Source: Dyella sp. S184 (GTDB taxonomy: Bacteria > Pseudomonadota > Gammaproteobacteria > Xanthomonadales > Rhodanobacteraceae). From it: a stretch of 64,000 nucleotides of DNA. The position numbers and the translations under genes are program-made. A model generated the notes under the pieces. It worked only from the letters and a program-made list of their open reading frames with translations. It had not been told where the DNA came from and searched no databases. The stretch is from NCBI RefSeq assembly GCF_009766065.1, contig NZ_LMUE01000005.1:310001-374000 (forward strand), given 5' to 3'. Positions 14,318-33,058 of this stretch are shown here, in pieces; the stretch's first letter is position 1; each line of letters begins with the position of its first letter.

Positions 14318-15600
14318 TATTGAACGCGCCGGATCATCTGGCGGTGATCGACAAGCGCATTCCTTACCAATTCGACGTGTTTGATACGACTTCGAACAAC
14401 ATTTTCAAGGAGCAGTTTGCGTTGCCGAAGAGCTTTGCCGATTTCGGCGCCACCTTCATGAAACTGCAGGATGCGTATGTCGACGAGCAGCTCAAGGCAC
14501 TGCTTGCCAAGGATCCAGACAATCTGTTTCCACATGGCAATGGCTCCGATCGCCTGCTGCACAGCAAAGCCGTAATGGACAGTTTTCCCAGCCTGATCAT
14601 CCGCAACAGCAATGGCGACTGGGATCGGTCAATGCAGAAGGGGCCAAAAACCCCGTTGTCCGACAATGCTTACGTGGCCCTCGGCGTTGCAGGACACAGC
14701 GTCCTGATTCATTTGCGCAAGCCAGACAGTGTTCCGGCCAGGCAGTGGTACACCGACCCTACCCAGCTCATGAATCAGCTGACGAAAATCGGTTTCCTGA
14801 AGCGTCCGATTGGTTCCGAACAGATCAAGGTCACTTCGCTGGGCAAACCCGTTCAGGACACGGTTTACACCGATGCATGGCAACGCCATTGGCAAGTGCG
14901 CGTGTGGGCCGTGCCCTATAACAACGGGCTCGTCATCACGTTTTCGCTGCCGGTGCCAGATGGCTATGTGACCATGATGCGGTTCTCACAGGCAGGTCAG
15001 CAGCATGATCATGTCGCCGACATGCAGGCGCTCACCGGTTTCTTCTATGTGACTTACGAAGGCACCTTGGCGCAATGGAAGGACTATCTGCAGAACACCA
15101 CGCTGCTGCCTGCGGCATTCAAGGACATCCGGATCGACTTCGACTACGACCACCGTTTCAGCTATGCATCGAAACGACTGGCGTTTTCCTTCACGCCTGA
15201 ACTGCAGAAAATCGCGCCGACCAGCGTGCTTGCCCTAGGTTTCAGCTACTTCACCGACCACGGCAGGGTCGTGTGGGATGTGGGCGATGTGCGTGTCAGG
15301 ACGGATGCCAGCGAAGAAAACCTGGTCAATATCAGGCGCAACGTGGCCCCCTCAGGCGATCTCGAGGACGACTACAAGAGCGAGTGGCACAAGATCTCGC
15401 AGCACGATCATCCCTACGATGGCGTTGCACTCAGCGAAGGTGACGCGACGAAGATCACCGCCGTCGTCAACGCAGCTGCCGGTGCTGATCCGTCGGTGCT
15501 GTACACCGCGTATTACGGGGCCGAAGGCACGCACCCGCAAGATGCCATGAAAGCCAAGCTTGATCTGTTGATGAAAAACTTGCAGGTGACCGAGCACTGA
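13597..15600 (+). CDS. Exported trypsin-fold (S1C/HtrA-like) serine protease, tandem copy 2
   Basis: This 667-residue paralog of the preceding gene has the same signal peptide style, GAAGGA ribosome-binding site and catalytic triad positions (H100, D136, S208 in GNSGGPLL). The protease domain and the upstream 110 bases are nearly identical to copy 1. The C-terminal 400 residues align along their whole length but have diverged far more (for example NNIFKEQFALPKSFADFG against SGTFKAQFKLPLGVAAFY). This suggests that recent exchange homogenised the front half while the back half, perhaps the substrate-recognition part, evolved separately. No domain is recognised in the back half. It lies in tandem with copy 1 and may be separately expressed. 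Confidence 0.8.
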   Translation: MHVLEMILRKAGSRTMVLGCLLCLVLCGGAARAASLDPAVLPKIQAATFEVVAAKPVNDPLTYAKPLPMELLPYQERNDKYYSIGTAFALGNNRYVTAAHVLQVGIGSLWGEPALRDASGHVYAIGKIEKYSLRQDFVVFSLATQPATAAALDVDTKPAVNGVVYAVGNALGTGVVIRDGLYTSDTPEDQDGRWKWMRFSAAASPGNSGGPLLDQDGKVIGIVLMKSANENLNYALPISEVLNAPDHLAVIDKRIPYQFDVFDTTSNNIFKEQFALPKSFADFGATFMKLQDAYVDEQLKALLAKDPDNLFPHGNGSDRLLHSKAVMDSFPSLIIRNSNGDWDRSMQKGPKTPLSDNAYVALGVAGHSVLIHLRKPDSVPARQWYTDPTQLMNQLTKIGFLKRPIGSEQIKVTSLGKPVQDTVYTDAWQRHWQVRVWAVPYNNGLVITFSLPVPDGYVTMMRFSQAGQQHDHVADMQALTGFFYVTYEGTLAQWKDYLQNTTLLPAAFKDIRIDFDYDHRFSYASKRLAFSFTPELQKIAPTSVLALGFSYFTDHGRVVWDVGDVRVRTDASEENLVNIRRNVAPSGDLEDDYKSEWHKISQHDHPYDGVALSEGDATKITAVVNAAAGADPSVLYTAYYGAEGTHPQDAMKAKLDLLMKNLQVTEH

Positions 15601-25444: not shown

Positions 25445-25751
25445 GAACGAACTCCTTCGGCCGCGTCACGCCATGACTGGCATGAAGGCGCTGCGCCTGC
25501 CGGTGGATTATCCGGTCATCCGCTTACAAAGTGCTTAAGGCAGAGGGGTGGTTTTGGAAACGAACGCATCGCAGTTCTTTTTCGCAGCGCGTGGTTGGTT
25601 TGCCATCCCACTTCATGACTACGAATCCCACCTGCGTGGGAGATAGGTCAGGATATATCCACAAGGCGAATTCCGTTTGGTGCTGTTGGCAATTGATATC
25701 GGACGGGGCATGCTTGGGGGCATTGAGAACGCAAAAATGGTAGTGCGCAAC
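25445..25751. other. Intergenic region between the two-component system and the chimeric regulator
   Basis: About 300 bases without a supported gene. It holds the response-regulator promoter described separately and a perfect six-base inverted repeat, TCCCAC-CTGC-GTGGGA (25626-25641). The latter might be an operator or the scar of the recombination that created the downstream chimera. No tRNA or obvious attachment site was found, which is notable because P4-type integrases usually insert at tRNA 3' ends. Confidence 0.5.
25507..25539 (-). promoter_or_regulatory. PmrA/QseB-like box with -10 before the response regulator
   Basis: Read on the minus strand: CTTAAG (25539-25534), five bases, TGTAAG (25528-25523), ten bases, GATAAT (25512-25507) as -10. 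Transcription would start near 25500, leaving a leader of about 55 bases. Spacings are identical to the element at 16637-16669. Confidence 0.55.
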
Positions 25752-27107
25752 ATGCCCCTGACTCACGCCGCAATACGTACTGCCAAGGCGGCCGAGAAAC
25801 CCACGCGTCTATACGACAGCGGCGGCCTGTATGTGGAAGTATCCCCAGCGGGGAGCAAGCTTTGGCGGCTGAAGTACCGCTACGGTGGCAAAGAGAAACG
25901 CCTATCGTTGGGGACTTTCCCGGAGATCGGCCTGAAGGAGGCTCGCGGGAAGCGCGATGCGGCTCGTTTGATGCTGGCTGACGGGGTCGATCCAGGCGAG
26001 CATCGAAAAGTCGCAAAGGGCGCCGGCGCCAGGATCATCGCTTCCAACGACATGGCTGAGCTGCCAACGCAGGCGCAGATCGCGCTTCCATCGCCCACCT
26101 GGGCGAGATCGCTGGAGGCTCTCGGCATCAGTGAGCTCGAAGAGCGCGCCTATTGCATTGTTCTGGAGCACCATGCGATGACGATGGAAGATGTCGCAGC
26201 TTTGCTCTCCTTGCCAGCGGACAAGGCGCAGTGGTTGCTTGATGCTATCGAATCCTATGGGCTGGTATCTCACTCGCCCGAATGGCCGCCGCGCTATAGC
26301 GCCGTTCCACCAGAAGTCGCCATCGAAGCGCTGATCAACCAACGCCAATCCGGACTTGAAAAGGCACGACTGGCCATACCGAAACTCAAGAACCGGGCCA
26401 AGCGGCATGTAGACGGGAAAGAACGTGAGCAGGTGGTGGAAGTCATCAACAGCGGTGCCGTACTCGCTCAGGTTGTCGAGCGCTTGCTCAAGACAGTCAA
26501 GTACGAAATTATTGGTTTTCAACGGGCCCCAATGATTTTTCCGCGCGAACCGGAACCGGTGCCTGCAGGCACGCAAGCAAAAAGCGTATCCGATGCCAGT
26601 TACCTTGAGATGCCAGGTGCGATCGAGAATTTGCGGCGCACGGTAGAAATGGGCGAAGAGGCCAGAACCTACGCAATACTTCCGTTCAAGATGGTTATCG
26701 TCGATCGGCGCCTGGGCCTCATCACATTGCACTCCGAGAATTTGGGCGGCGCTGCCATGCTGGTTCGCCCGTCTGCCTTGCTTGATGCACTGTGCATGCT
26801 TTTTGATCTGGTCTGGGAACGGGCAACGCCCTTCGTGACCGAAACTTCTGGGGTGCTGGAGATGGATCATGCGCCCTCTCGGTTGACGAGGACGGCTGAG
26901 CAGTTGATTCCTTTGTTGGCGGCAGGGCTCAACGATAAAACGATCGCAGCTGAAGTGAACATATCCGCGATGACGCTCAATCGACGTATCGGTGAGCTCT
27001 TGAAACATTACGGAATACGCACGCGCTTCCAACTGGGCTGGCGTGCAGCCATGGACATGTATCCGAACGGCAGGCCGCAAGCCCAGGGATCACAAGCGGC
27101 TGTCTGA
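25752..27107 (+). CDS. Chimeric regulator: P4-integrase arm-binding domain fused to TrmB/LuxR-type regulator
   Basis: 451 residues from the preferred ATG; 25737 is an alternative. Residues 1-88 are an integrase N-terminal arm-binding domain (DUF4102): AIRTAKAAEKPTRLYDSGGL, GSKLWRLKYRYGGKEKRLSL, GVDPGEHRK. The core-binding and catalytic domains with the Tyr nucleophile are absent. Residues about 118-215 form a TrmB-type winged helix (LGISELEERAYCIVLEH). About 225-365 resembles the PLD-like effector region of TrmB-LuxR regulators (PFKMVIVDRRLGLI, LLVRPSALLDALCMLFD), and about 375-435 is a LuxR helix-turn-helix (LAAGLNDKTIAAEVNISAMT). An internal ATG at 26052 (residue 101) could be the ancestral regulator start, but lacks a clear ribosome-binding site. 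It probably controls the adjacent S53 protease genes. Domain calls are confident; the function of the fusion is unknown. Confidence 0.75.
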   Translation: MPLTHAAIRTAKAAEKPTRLYDSGGLYVEVSPAGSKLWRLKYRYGGKEKRLSLGTFPEIGLKEARGKRDAARLMLADGVDPGEHRKVAKGAGARIIASNDMAELPTQAQIALPSPTWARSLEALGISELEERAYCIVLEHHAMTMEDVAALLSLPADKAQWLLDAIESYGLVSHSPEWPPRYSAVPPEVAIEALINQRQSGLEKARLAIPKLKNRAKRHVDGKEREQVVEVINSGAVLAQVVERLLKTVKYEIIGFQRAPMIFPREPEPVPAGTQAKSVSDASYLEMPGAIENLRRTVEMGEEARTYAILPFKMVIVDRRLGLITLHSENLGGAAMLVRPSALLDALCMLFDLVWERATPFVTETSGVLEMDHAPSRLTRTAEQLIPLLAAGLNDKTIAAEVNISAMTLNRRIGELLKHYGIRTRFQLGWRAAMDMYPNGRPQAQGSQAAV

Positions 27108-27174
27108 TGGAGCGTGTCTTTCGGCGTGGCAACAAAAGCCAGTCTGCTCCATTCGAAATAGCCGGCTAAACGGC

Positions 27175-27190
27175 TGGTAGATATCTACCA
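27175..27190. promoter_or_regulatory. Perfect 16-bp palindrome, candidate operator
   Basis: TGGTAGATATCTACCA is identical to its reverse complement. It lies 68 bases after the chimeric regulator gene and about 390 bases before the S53 protease start. The two-fold symmetry and length suit a dimeric LuxR-type DNA-binding domain; the binding protein is not known. Confidence 0.4.
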
Positions 27191-27510
27191 AAGTGGGAAA
27201 TCCATCAACGCATTCGCTTGCGCGCGTCTCCGCCTGTGTCAATACTCGGTTCGACAGGGGGAAAGACAGCTTCGAGACAGGATGGTTTCCAAAGCACTGT
27301 CGAGGGAGTATCTGCCGACAGCCTGAATATCCTGAGGATGCCGCCGCAGATCTTGTTCAGTGTGCCAGCGCTCTTTGGCGGTCCATACCGCCAAGGATCG
27401 GGAGAGTGTGTGCGACGTATTGAACGGGTACGGATGTTTTGCTTTCCCGGTTGAATTTCTCCGAGCCGTGCAAGAAGCCACAGGATGTGGCAACGCTGCG
27501 CACGCAAGGT

Positions 27511-27583
27511 GCTGTTCGCAAAGGTAGATCCGGCAAGTGCGCCATCAACTTTTTGACCAACTTACAGAAAGGGAGCTATATCC
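27511..27583 (+). repeat. Conserved S53 protease leader, copy 1
   Basis: GCTGTTCGCAAAG, GCGCCATCAACTTTT and CAACTTACA are shared with 30607-30673 before the second protease. The sequences further upstream are unrelated. The block ends in the ribosome-binding site (AAAGGGAG) and carries a near-repeat ATCAACTT ... ACCAACTT with a 12-base period. Confidence 0.7.
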
Positions 27584-30079
27584 ATGAAACAGGGCTATTT
27601 CATTCTCAGCGCATCCATTGCAGCGGCGCTCGCCGGCGCACCGGTGCTGGCGCAGCCGGTGGCTGCAAGCAATCTCGTCACGGCCGCCGGCACCAGTGAG
27701 GCGCCGCGTGTCACCCAGACGATCAACAACCAGCTGGTTTCCCCGCTTGCGAAGACCCACCTCAAGTTCGTTGAAACGAAAGCGCCGGGCAAGCAGCTGG
27801 CCGATACCTTCAAGATGAATCACCTGCAGCTGGTGCTCAAGCCGAGCGCCGCGCGGCAGGCCGCCCTGACCAGCCTGATCGCCGACCAGCACAACCCGAA
27901 GTCGTCCAGCTTTCACAAGTGGCTGACTCCGGAGCAGTTCGGTGAATCGTATGGCGTGGCCGACAGCGACATCGCCGCGGTCACGGCGTGGCTGAAGTCG
28001 CAGGGCTTCACCGTCAACAACGTGTACCCGAACAAGACCCAGATCGATTTCAGCGGCACCGCCGGCCAGGTGAAGGCGGCGTTCCATACCCAGGAAAACA
28101 TCTACAACCTCGCCAATGGCAGCAAGACTAAGGAACAGCACATCGCCAATGCCGGCGATATCAGCATCCCGGTGGCGCTGAAGGACGTGGTGGCCGGCGT
28201 GATGGGCCTGAACGATTTCCACCCGAAGGCGATGAACAAGCCGATCAAGGGCGCCAAGTGGGACACCACCAAGAAAGGCCTGGTACTCAGCCAGCCGGCG
28301 GCCTCCAGCAAGCTCGGTGGCAAGAGCCAGGCGATCAGCGTCGCCTATCCGAATTATAATCCGCAGGGCGTGATCCGTGGCCTGGTACCCAATGATCTGG
28401 CGACCATGTACGGCGTCAGCACGATCCGCGCCAATGGCATCACAGGTACGGGTGTCACCATCGCGGTGGTCGAAGACGACTCGATGGTGCCGGCGGACTG
28501 GACCAATTTTGAAACCACCTTCAACCTGACCAGGTTCGGCGGCACCTTCAATCAGTTCCAGCCAGCGCCGAGCAGTGGCGCCAACAATTGCTATGACCCG
28601 AACGTGGAATACGGCGCGGGCCAGGATGATGGTGAAACCCTGCTGGACGCGGAATGGTCGGCGGCCATCGCGCCGGGCGCGAACATCCAGGTCGCTACCT
28701 GCGCGGACTATTACTATCAGGGCAGCAACTTCTACTACGCGACCACCAACTTCTTTGGCGGTGTCTTTGTCGCGGCGACCAATCTGATCAACGAAACGAG
28801 CGGCCGTCCGAACATCATCAGTGCCAGCTATGGCTACGGTGAACAATTCACCGACAGCGCCAGCAAGACCGCGATCGACCTGATGTGGGCACAGGCGGAT
28901 GCCGAGGGTATTTCGGTGTTTGTCTCCACCGGTGACTCCGGCTCCAACCCCAGCTTCAATGGCGGCCTGATCAACGGCAGAGACGGCAACACGGCGGTCG
29001 ATGCCAATTCGTTCGCGACCTCGCCGAACGATACCGGCGTCGGCGGTACCGATCTGGCCGACATCATCGATGGCACCACCAGCAAGTACTTTGCGGCGAC
29101 GCCGAGTGCGGTGGGCGGCTCGGCCCTGTCGTATGTGCCGGAGATTCCGTGGAACGAGTCGTGCGGCAATGGCGTGGCATCCACGGCGATGGGTTACGCC
29201 TCGCCGATCGCCTTCTGCAATGCCGCCCTGGCTTATGCGCTGAACCCCCCCGCTACGCCAACCAACCTGCAGTACTACGCGAATACCTTCGAAACCTCCG
29301 AAGCCGGCAGCGGTGGTCCGTCCTCGGTCGATCGCAAGCCGGTCTGGCAGCGTCAGGTCTACAACGCGGCACCGGATCAGTCGCGTGACCTGCCGGACGT
29401 GGCGTTGTTCGCCGGCTCGTTTGGCGATGACACCTTCGTGGCCGTCTGCTCGCAGGGTTACGTGTGCACGCCGGACTTCACCGCCGGCACCGCAGCCAAT
29501 CCGAACCCGAGCGGCGTCGGCCTCAGCGGGGGCACCTCGCTGGCTTCACCGATGTTCGCCGGCATCCAGGCGTTGATCGATCAGGGTCTGGCGGCACGTG
29601 GTTTGCCCCTGGATCAGGGCAATGCGGCACCGACGCTGTATGCGCTGGCGGGCAACGAGTACGGTACCGCTTCGCAGCCGAATTCGGCGAGCCTGAGCAC
29701 CTGCAATGCCAACAACGGCGCCACCGGCACGAGTGGTTGCGTGTTCCACAACGTCACCAGCGGTTCGATTTCCAGCGCCTGTTATAGCGAGACGGGTGTG
29801 GGCACGTACGCTGCGGACACGTTCGTGACGCCGAATTGCTATTACTACAACACCTTCCTTGTTGATGGTACGGCAGGAAGTGGCAATACGTTGACGGTCA
29901 ATATCGGCCTCACCACAAGCAACCCCAACCCCGCCGGCTATACCCCGACGAACAAGGCCTTCCCGGCCCAGCCGGGCTGGAGCTTTGCGTCGGGTCTGGG
30001 TTCGGTGAACGTCACGAACCTGCTGATCGCATGGCGTGCCTTCGTGGGTGCTCCGGCAGCGCCACCACCGGCACCGTAA
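27584..30079 (+). CDS. Secreted S53 serine-carboxyl protease (kumamolisin/sedolisin family), paralog 1
   Basis: 831 residues. A signal peptide (KQGYFILSASIAAALAGAPVLAQ) is followed by a pro-kumamolisin activation domain (about residues 50-200; FHKWLTPEQFGESYG, VNNVYPNKTQIDFSGT), then the S53 catalytic domain. The catalytic residues are E351 and D355 (GETLLDAEW), oxyanion D451 (STGDSGS) and nucleophile S652 (GGTSLASP). Such enzymes cleave proteins at acid pH after autocatalytic removal of the propeptide and are exported. The C-terminal region ends in a GWSFASGLGSVNVTNLL motif and a proline tail. It lies between the chimeric regulator and a second S53 gene and has its own terminator. Confidence 0.93.
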   Translation: MKQGYFILSASIAAALAGAPVLAQPVAASNLVTAAGTSEAPRVTQTINNQLVSPLAKTHLKFVETKAPGKQLADTFKMNHLQLVLKPSAARQAALTSLIADQHNPKSSSFHKWLTPEQFGESYGVADSDIAAVTAWLKSQGFTVNNVYPNKTQIDFSGTAGQVKAAFHTQENIYNLANGSKTKEQHIANAGDISIPVALKDVVAGVMGLNDFHPKAMNKPIKGAKWDTTKKGLVLSQPAASSKLGGKSQAISVAYPNYNPQGVIRGLVPNDLATMYGVSTIRANGITGTGVTIAVVEDDSMVPADWTNFETTFNLTRFGGTFNQFQPAPSSGANNCYDPNVEYGAGQDDGETLLDAEWSAAIAPGANIQVATCADYYYQGSNFYYATTNFFGGVFVAATNLINETSGRPNIISASYGYGEQFTDSASKTAIDLMWAQADAEGISVFVSTGDSGSNPSFNGGLINGRDGNTAVDANSFATSPNDTGVGGTDLADIIDGTTSKYFAATPSAVGGSALSYVPEIPWNESCGNGVASTAMGYASPIAFCNAALAYALNPPATPTNLQYYANTFETSEAGSGGPSSVDRKPVWQRQVYNAAPDQSRDLPDVALFAGSFGDDTFVAVCSQGYVCTPDFTAGTAANPNPSGVGLSGGTSLASPMFAGIQALIDQGLAARGLPLDQGNAAPTLYALAGNEYGTASQPNSASLSTCNANNGATGTSGCVFHNVTSGSISSACYSETGVGTYAADTFVTPNCYYYNTFLVDGTAGSGNTLTVNIGLTTSNPNPAGYTPTNKAFPAQPGWSFASGLGSVNVTNLLIAWRAFVGAPAAPPPAP

Positions 30080-30606: not shown

Positions 30607-30673
30607 GCTGTTCGCAAAGTGGATCTGGTAATTGCGCCATCAACTTTTGATCAACTTACACAGGAGCTTCATC
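30607..30673 (+). repeat. Conserved S53 protease leader, copy 2
   Basis: Second copy of the 27511-27583 block. Here it contains a perfect direct repeat, ATCAACTT-TTG-ATCAACTT, with an 11-base period (one helical turn), followed by ACA and an AGGAG ribosome-binding site. It could be an operator, a promoter element or an mRNA leader signal. Confidence 0.7.
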
Positions 30674-33058
30674 ATGAAACAAAGCTATTTCATTCTCAGT
30701 GCGTCGATCGCCGCCGCGTTGGCCGGCGCACCAGCCATGCTGATGGCGCAGCCAACGGTTTCAGCCGGTGCCAGCGAGGCACCACAGGTCACCCAAGCCG
30801 TCAGCAATACCAGTCTGTACACGATCCCGAAGACCCGTCTGGCATTCATTGCCCAGGCAACGGCAAGCACCCCGCTGCCTGGCACCACCAAGCTGAATCA
30901 CCTGCAGCTGATACTCAAGCCCAGCGCGGCGCGTCAGGCCGCGATGGAAACGACCATCGCCAATCTACACAATCCCAAGTCGGCCCAGTTCCAGAAGTGG
31001 CTGACACCACAGGAGTTTGGTCAGGAGTTCGGCGCGAACCCTGCTGATATCGCCGCCGTCACGGCCTGGCTGACTGCGCAGGGGTTCACCGTCAACAACG
31101 TCTACCCGAACAAGACACAGATCGATTTCAGTGGCACGGTCGCGCAGGTGAATGCGGCGTTCCACACGCAGGAAAGCGTCTACACGCTAAGTCAAACAGT
31201 TCGGGACAGTACCACCGGAAAGCTCACCCAGACCCCGGTCAAGCACCTGTCAAATTCCAGCGACATCAGCATTCCGGCGGCGTTGGCACCCGTGGTGGCC
31301 GGTGTGATGGGCCTGAATGACTTCCATGCAACATCCCTGGCCAAGAAGCCCAAGGTCGCGCAATGGAATGCGTCGAAGAAGGGCTTTGTCGCCAAGACCG
31401 CCACGCCCACAGCCCCAAAGGGAATCGCCCAGGCCGTCTCGTTCAACGGGGGCGCCTTGCGTGGTCTGGTGCCGAACGACATGTCCACGATCTACAATGT
31501 CAAGACGATCCGCGGTAATGGCCTCACCGGCGCCGGCGTGACCATTGCGGTCGTTGAGGACGGCGACATGGTGCCGGGGGATTGGACCAATTTCGTCAGC
31601 ACCTTCAATCTTGGCCAATACGGCGGTACATTCAGTCAGGTCAATCCGGCGCCGCCCAGTGGCACGAACAACTGCGAAGATCCGGATGCCGTTTTTGGCT
31701 ATGCTCAGGATGACACGGAGACTGTGCTCGATGCGGAATGGTCTACCGCGATCGCGCCCGGCGCGAACATCGAGGTCGCTACCTGCGCGGACTATTACGT
31801 CAACAACAGCAACTTCTACTATGCGACCAGCAACTTCTTTGGCGGTGTATTTGTTGCGGCGACCAATCTGATCAACGAACCGAGTGGTCGTCCGGACATC
31901 ATCAGTGCCAGCTACGGCTACGGCGAGTACTTTACCGACCCCGCCAGCAAGACCGGCATCGATCTGATGTGGGCGCAGGCCGACGCCGAGGGTATTTCGG
32001 TGTTCGTCTCCGCCGGTGACTCCGGTTCCAACCCGAGCTTCAATGGCGGCATCATCAACGGCGAGTCGGGCGACTCGGCGGTCGACGCCAACGCGTTCGG
32101 CACTTCGCCGCATGACACCGTGGTTGGTGGCACGGACTTCGCCGACTATATCGAAGGCACCACCAGCAAGTATTTCGCGCCGACGCCGAGTGCGGTCGGT
32201 GGTTCGGCGCTGTCGTATGTGCCGGAGATTCCATGGAACACGTCCTGCGGCAACGGCGTCGCCGCGACGGCGCTGGGTTTCAGCAGTGCTCTGGCGTACT
32301 GTCAGGAATACCTGAAGTACGACCCCAATGGTGACTACGTGACCTCCGAAGCCGGCAGCGGTGGGCCGTCCAGGGTGGATGCGAAGCCCGTATGGCAGCG
32401 GCAGGTCTACAACGCGGCGAACGATCAGTCGCGCGATGTACCCGATGTCTCGCTGTTCGGCGGGTCGTGGGGTGACCACACCTGGGTGATCCTCTGCTCC
32501 AACAAGTATCCATGCGAGCCGGGCTTTACCACGGCGACCGCTCTGGAGGCTGGTACCTCGTTGTCGTCACCGATGTTTGCCGGTATCCAGGCGTTGATGG
32601 ATCAGGGGCTGGCTGCGCGCGGTCTGCCGATGGACCAAGGCAATGCGGCACCGACGCTGTATGCGCTGGCGGCACAGGAATACGGCGGCGCGACCGGTAC
32701 ACCGCCGGCCACGCTGGCCGCCTGCAACGCCAACAATGGCACCACGGGAACCAGCGGCTGCGTATTCTACAATGTCACCAGCGGCTCGAATTCCACGCAG
32801 TGCTATCAGGAGCAAGGGTTCACCACGGCCAACTGTTACTACTATGGAACAGTGGACTACAACAATGTACAGGTGGGTCTGACCAGCACCGTCGCTGCAC
32901 CTACCAATTATACGGCGACCAACAAGGCCTTCCCGGCCCAGCCGGGCTGGAGCTTTGCCAATGGCCTGGGCTCGGTGAATGCCACCAACCTGTTGATCGC
33001 ATGGAGGGCATTCGACAACGCGCCACCGGCCGCACCGGCTGTAGTTACTGTCAAGTAA
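30674..33058 (+). CDS. Secreted S53 serine-carboxyl protease (kumamolisin/sedolisin family), paralog 2
   Basis: 794 residues, start fixed by CAGGAG and by the signal peptide KQSYFILSASIAAALAGAPAMLMAQ, which matches paralog 1. The pro-domain shares the KWLTPQEFGQEFG and VNNVYPNKTQIDFSGT segments. Catalytic residues are E349 and D353 (ETVLDAEW) and S629 in AGTSLSSP; the family glycine before the GTS motif is alanine here. The oxyanion aspartate is in SAGDSGS. It lacks one of the inserts and the proline tail of paralog 1. The high similarity, including the leader, indicates tandem duplication, and both are probably exported proteases under one control. A terminator follows at 33085. Confidence 0.93.
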   Translation: MKQSYFILSASIAAALAGAPAMLMAQPTVSAGASEAPQVTQAVSNTSLYTIPKTRLAFIAQATASTPLPGTTKLNHLQLILKPSAARQAAMETTIANLHNPKSAQFQKWLTPQEFGQEFGANPADIAAVTAWLTAQGFTVNNVYPNKTQIDFSGTVAQVNAAFHTQESVYTLSQTVRDSTTGKLTQTPVKHLSNSSDISIPAALAPVVAGVMGLNDFHATSLAKKPKVAQWNASKKGFVAKTATPTAPKGIAQAVSFNGGALRGLVPNDMSTIYNVKTIRGNGLTGAGVTIAVVEDGDMVPGDWTNFVSTFNLGQYGGTFSQVNPAPPSGTNNCEDPDAVFGYAQDDTETVLDAEWSTAIAPGANIEVATCADYYVNNSNFYYATSNFFGGVFVAATNLINEPSGRPDIISASYGYGEYFTDPASKTGIDLMWAQADAEGISVFVSAGDSGSNPSFNGGIINGESGDSAVDANAFGTSPHDTVVGGTDFADYIEGTTSKYFAPTPSAVGGSALSYVPEIPWNTSCGNGVAATALGFSSALAYCQEYLKYDPNGDYVTSEAGSGGPSRVDAKPVWQRQVYNAANDQSRDVPDVSLFGGSWGDHTWVILCSNKYPCEPGFTTATALEAGTSLSSPMFAGIQALMDQGLAARGLPMDQGNAAPTLYALAAQEYGGATGTPPATLAACNANNGTTGTSGCVFYNVTSGSNSTQCYQEQGFTTANCYYYGTVDYNNVQVGLTSTVAAPTNYTATNKAFPAQPGWSFANGLGSVNATNLLIAWRAFDNAPPAAPAVVTVK

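Follow-up and report, generated by a model that had tools for sequence, protein, structure and literature searches.

An integrase arm domain joined in frame to a TrmB/LuxR-like regulator, with arm-type repeats upstream: a probable 5'-end replacement

Background

As set out in the paper on IntS, the integrase of prophage KplE1, this protein represses its own promoter about 5-fold through binding sites that overlap the promoter, one arm-type site lying over the -10 box (PMC2951348). Its authors propose that autoregulation could apply to most tRNA-associated integrase genes, and mention self-regulation of the integrase in P4. The gene analysed here, located in a 64,000-nucleotide stretch of DNA (the window), resembles those of P4-like tyrosine integrases in that its product begins with an arm domain recognizable by sequence and fold (as in the HPI and HAI7 arm domains, 3jtz, 3ju0 and 3rmp), and in the arm-type-like repeats directly upstream. 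It differs from them in that no catalytic motif or domain was found and in that its C-terminal part is a TrmB/LuxR-like regulator. As for IntS, candidate sites overlap a putative promoter upstream of the gene of the presumed binding protein; IntS, however, is a working recombinase, whereas repression of the fused gene is presumed. With the TrmB family (TrmB, TrmBL2) the protein shares a winged helix and a PLD-like effector region, the predicted model being similar in fold to TrmB/TrmBL2 and PLD proteins, but here the TrmB helix is internal, following the arm domain and preceding a LuxR-like helix-turn-helix (HTH). One homologue, in genome G006, resembles LexA in having a LexA DNA-binding domain and a LexA-type palindrome where the arm stands elsewhere, although that domain is joined to the same TrmB/LuxR-like body. 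Among the listed matches in the open-licence full-text literature, in the portions available, an arm-TrmB/LuxR architecture is not described. If the interpretation developed below is correct, the DNA-binding domain of a mobile element works in a host regulator together with its own operator, and a new transcription-factor circuit can arise through one recombination event.

Domain architecture

Positions 25752–27107 form a single open frame of 451 codons, with its ATG at 25752 and its stop at 27105–27107, and are confirmed to encode an intact integrase arm domain of the P4-like kind, fused to a regulator that is TrmB/LuxR-like (Table 1). Arm-DNA-bind_3 (PF13356) matches residues 3–86 with 86.2 bits against a Pfam cut-off of 27, and the sequence match to 3jtz, the solved HPI integrase arm, has an E value of 4.1e-19. 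In the AlphaFold model of the fused protein (mean pLDDT 84.2, pTM 0.39) the arm domain superposes on this structure with an rmsd of 0.8 over 74 columns at 53% identity. Pfam found no tyrosine-recombinase domain in the fused protein up to E 1, and the integrase motif H[GDAS][FMLT]R, carried by 83 of the 88 non-fused arm frames that reach 340 aa, occurs in none of the eight fused proteins. An earlier note on this DNA, which had read the first 88 residues as an arm domain lacking the recombinase core and the frame as unbroken across the join, was thus correct on both counts. Its assignment of the remainder to a TrmB helix, a PLD-like region and a LuxR HTH is borne out as well, the last as a LuxR-like segment. 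TrmB (PF01978) scores 43.8 bits at residues 121–188 against a curated Pfam cut-off of 25.6, and in the domain-by-domain fold comparison further parts of the model match TrmBL2 from archaea (5bpd) and Nuc, a member of the PLD family (1byr). The GerE (LuxR) match at residues 378–427, at 16.1 bits (19.6 bits in the G006 homologue), falls under its curated cut-off of 23.5, so that the name LuxR-like is based on weak sequence similarity and on a C-terminal segment with four helices at residues 377–436 of the model. The two unfused paralogues in the window's own genome (G000) align to the fused protein from residue 118 on, and comparison of residues 89–118 among homologues, where the note had suggested looking for the junction, revealed a poorly conserved linker.

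Table 1. Features of the fused gene and its surroundings (window positions)
Feature	Position	Strand	Evidence
Candidate promoter TTGGCA-N17-CATGCT	25686..25714	+	weak, 8/12 consensus bases, read by eye
Arm-type site pair GGGGCAT-N5-GGGGCAT, 12 bp apart	25705..25723	+	unique in 64 kb; identical in 3 orthologues, flanks vary
Integrase arm DNA-binding domain, residues 1–88	25752..26015	+	PF13356 E 1.6e-24; 3jtz by sequence and fold; dN/dS ~0.1
Variable linker, residues 89–118	26016..26105	+	low conservation; pLDDT <50 at 98–117
TrmB winged helix, residues 121–188	26112..26315	+	PF01978 E 2.4e-11
PLD-like / TrmB-type effector region (putative), residues 189–365	26316..26846	+	model matches to TrmBL2 5bpd and Nuc 1byr
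LuxR-type HTH (putative), residues 371–435	26862..27056	+	sub-cut-off GerE, weak NarL/DevR sequence matches, model helices
Perfect 16-bp palindrome TGGTAGATATCTACCA, between regulator stop and protease genes	27175..27190		3/3 window-clade loci
Pro-kumamolisin (S53-type) protease, likely target	27584..30079	+	PF09286 E 2e-28
Second pro-kumamolisin (S53-type) protease	30632..33058	+	PF09286 E 1.2e-26

Distribution and ancestry

Homologues that have the same join and match over the full length show 82–85% and 47–53% identity. Full-length fusions were found, among 45 genomes of the genus, in G000, G016, G017 (two), G023 and G025, and among the 233 genomes of the family a second genus contributes two tandem fusions, both in G116. 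The family search, scoring at most the best seven candidates per genome, gave at least 45 regulator matches at E ≤1e-42 in at least 28 of the 233 genomes. Parsing of 39 of these 45 (six regions were left out) yielded one LexA fusion, 30 regulators with neither domain, two of them in the window's genome alongside five further arm-domain matches, and eight arm fusions in two genera, so that the architecture recurs within the family, where the earlier note had thought it should be sought. No fusion was found outside the family among 398 genomes of the order, family included, with the best four candidates at most taken per genome.

The arm set comprises 110 frames, of which 107 entered the tree (L161, two rows, and L169 were left out), and the site counts given below cover the 88 non-fused and eight fused arm frames that remain once frames under 340 aa are left out. 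The arm tree needs three changes and the regulator-core tree four, two being forced in each (in the arm tree by well-supported branches), where changes may be gains or losses. The two distinct site and arm subtypes favour more than one arm capture, although the AU test does not reject a single clade of fused arms (p 0.12). Recent decay of an integrase beside a regulator is ruled out, there being eight open fusions in two genera. An apparent internal stop in the G016 and G017:C11 matches proved to be simply where these proteins, which are shorter, end.

Selection on the arm domain

The arm domain of the fused gene is under purifying selection, with a dN/dS of about 0.1 over its 88 codons in three window-clade pairs (0.047/0.42, 0.034/0.39 and 0.050/0.56). 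Arm dN is lower than that of the middle of the regulator in both pairs containing the window sequence (0.047 and 0.034 vs 0.108 and 0.100), and in the third pair the order is reversed (0.050 vs 0.015). Of 36 residues conserved in the 88 integrase-type arms (mean 33.1), between 32 and 34 are retained in seven of the eight fused arms, and 28 in the more diverged arm of G017:C16.

Arm-type repeats and promoter

The label ‘arm-type’ derives from position and the integrase literature, the sites being known from sequence alone. In G000 and in G016 the exact pair GGGGCAT-N5-GGGGCAT has a single occurrence, at the fused gene. G017 has a further exact pair that is not at the fused gene (L205), and no frame of at least 80 aa begins within 200 bp of it. 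Under site classes drawn up post hoc, after the upstreams had been inspected, at least two arm-type-like sites lie within 85 bp upstream of all eight fused genes and of 74 of the 88 non-fused arm frames, mostly integrases. The corresponding counts are 66 of 1660 in a mononucleotide-shuffled control built from the upstreams of the 83 motif-bearing frames, and two of 31 for unfused regulator upstreams, both in the loosest class. Upstream of integrase-type arm frames direct copies are usually 10–12 bp apart, and in 57 of the 88 two or more direct copies are accompanied by an inverted one; the window clade is without an inverted copy, and no significant direct repeat was found upstream of G017:C16.

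The fused gene and its nearest classified integrase arm have a common site subtype in six of eight cases, namely GGGGCAT in the window clade, GGGGCAA in G116 and CGGTA in G017:C16, and the G023 and G025 fusions mismatch their nearest integrase by one base (GGGGCAC vs GGGGCAT). Of 74 integrase-type frames with sites, 57 agree in subtype with their nearest arm (mean after shuffling 17, maximum 33), an agreement partly raised by relatedness. The CGGTA match is the most telling, because only three of the 88 integrases have this type, and those are the three nearest kin of the G017:C16 fusion. Sites are also better conserved than their flanks in five upstream comparisons (Fisher p 0.0003 to 0.03), with identical positions at 21/21 vs 33/54 and 17/21 vs 28/52, and, in three comparisons that come from one clade and are therefore not independent, at 14/14 vs 46/61, 43/57 and 38/57.

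The hexamers and spacing of the candidate promoter recur in G017:C11, and G016 has TTGGTG as its first hexamer; since a sigma-70 consensus scan at ≥9/12 returned no promoter in 25445–27620, the assignment is tentative. Weak pair matches (up to two mismatches) exceed those to the reversed pattern in G000 (48 vs 20), G016 (56 vs 16) and G017 (55 vs 15), being 2.4 to 3.7 times as many, so that the arm domain may have other targets. Separately, a pair with one mismatch, which may be due to chance, is found 40 bp before a frame for a secreted esterase-like protein (L206, G000:C3:96376-96394).

Downstream genes

The secreted proteases that the earlier note had placed beside the regulator are indeed a common feature, S53-type matches occurring on the same strand, no more than 3.5 kb downstream, at 17 of the 39 loci, six of the eight fusions among them, and two of the 17 being weak (about 26% identity). 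Two further loci, L044 and L048, have a pro-kumamolisin gene by Pfam, and at L051 the regulator is followed by an autotransporter, at L079 by a YadA-like adhesin. No target was identified for the remaining regulator loci, two of which have less than 500 bp of downstream sequence, and for the G116 fusions an S53 gene was not found within the 3.8 and 5.6 kb of adjoining sequence. The TrmB/LuxR part most likely regulates the secreted proteins encoded next to it, and in the window it probably controls the S53-type proteases. The palindrome TGGTAGATATCTACCA is present in none of the other 36 loci within 700 bp past the stop, and as the stretch around it is 92% identical overall its conservation is no proof of function. 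Local amplification of the module is seen at L043 (G023:C4:150000-169900), where two regulator genes are each followed by two S53-type protease genes.

The LexA fusion

The regulator of G006 has, in the place of the arm domain, a LexA DNA-binding domain (PF01726, 60.2 bits), followed by ARELLVSGVDLSEQRKMAK, which in a by-eye alignment is like the end of the arm domain (about residues 71–89); the search match of the window protein to this regulator starts at residue 63. No other LexA part was found in the fused protein in Pfam. Directly upstream of its start lies the palindrome TTTCACC-N6-GGTGAAA, which also precedes 23 of 24 other LexA-type loci (the best-scoring of the matches in 118 genomes), the 24th having the variant TTTTCGCC. 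Within the G006 genome this palindrome, at up to one mismatch, is found once, at the LexA fusion, and a second match to the LexA domain at E 1e-6 was not found. The fusion is known from one genome, and its branch in the regulator tree is a long one. As a parallel case it supports the capture reading set out below. Judged from sequence, two kinds of self-regulated DNA-binding module, arm and LexA, appear to have been captured together with their operators. The large autotransporter (TIGR01414) that follows the G006 regulator, at L051:9231-14864, may be tied to a LexA-type signal.

Origin and function of the fusion

We consider it moderately probable that the gene is chimeric, the gene of a TrmB/LuxR-type regulator of secreted proteins having exchanged its 5' end for that of a P4-like integrase gene; the captured piece would consist of the upstream region with its arm-type sites, the start codon and the arm domain. 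The arm domain would still bind the repeats in its own promoter and limit transcription of its own gene, as in integrases of the same layout, while the TrmB/PLD-like/LuxR part would, as it did ancestrally, sense a signal and control the S53-type proteases next to it. Since integrases with such a promoter layout can repress themselves (PMC2951348) and the fused genes keep this layout, autoregulation by the arm domain is, by analogy, its most likely function. This suggests a ready-made self-control switch, an integrase domain with what are likely its own sites, captured from mobile DNA; arm-type sites being short and defined, binding and autoregulation are directly testable. Alternatively, the repeats could have been retained as a relic that serves promoter strength.

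The earlier note had held that an integrase DNA-binding module was recruited, which an intact domain under selection bears out, and that it may add target specificity or a second binding site, perhaps at the neighbouring genes, which the position of the sites does not favour. With the pair in the gene's own promoter, and with a search of the window's protease promoters finding none, autoregulation is better supported than extra target specificity. An arm domain that tethers the regulator and aids its action at the downstream protease promoters, in trans or by looping, would suit the arrangement of regulator and proteases side by side on one strand, with about 1.9 kb between the site pair and the first protease gene. 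Such a role is nevertheless unlikely, since beyond the fused-gene sites the scan found no arm-type pair in the window, nor in five of six further fused loci, and the single weak pair of the sixth, L039, lies at 14693, past its second protease gene. It is likewise doubtful that an integrase promoter alone was selected, with the arm domain a tolerated passenger bearing the start codon. The captured unit does take in the upstream region, and a lexA-like upstream region came along with the LexA domain in G006, but arm dN lies below that of the mid-regulator in both window pairs (the third pair pointing the opposite way), the repeats are conserved more than their flanks, and the conserved arm residues are retained.

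That the arm domain occupies arm sites in incoming elements or in islands already resident, and interferes with their integrases, is quite improbable; the fused arms are like those of same-genus integrases and G017 has its second exact pair away from the fused gene, yet in G000 and G016 the exact pair is at the fused gene only. The earlier note had also allowed for a coincidental upstream frame, with translation from the in-frame ATG at 26052 (residue 101). Homologues without the arm do exist, the unfused paralogues starting shortly before the equivalent of residue 118, but the two nearest to the window protein are both arm-fused, the fusion is found at eight loci, and in an alignment this ATG is not conserved, being Leu in G016. 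Conservation of, and selection on, the arm segment rule this reading out, and we give it next to no weight. Within the favoured 5'-replacement chimera, a broader and more tentative proposal, to which we give somewhat less than an even chance, is that self-regulating cassettes of promoter, operator and cognate DNA-binding domain are interchangeable units taken up whole by 5' gene replacement. In this one regulator family, integrases would have been the source on probably more than one occasion and lexA on a single one, where the lexA piece seems to have overwritten an arm domain already in place, and new autoregulation would thereby be gained in one step.

Apart from the fusions, stand-alone arm proteins of 154–159 aa lie directly upstream of another arm frame at L016:443, L114:6001, L118:6001 and L137:487, the downstream frame being full-length at three of these loci and short at L118. 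They occur in the window's genus, Desulfovibrionaceae, a delta-proteobacterial MAG and Nitrospinota, and are possibly dedicated integrase regulators.
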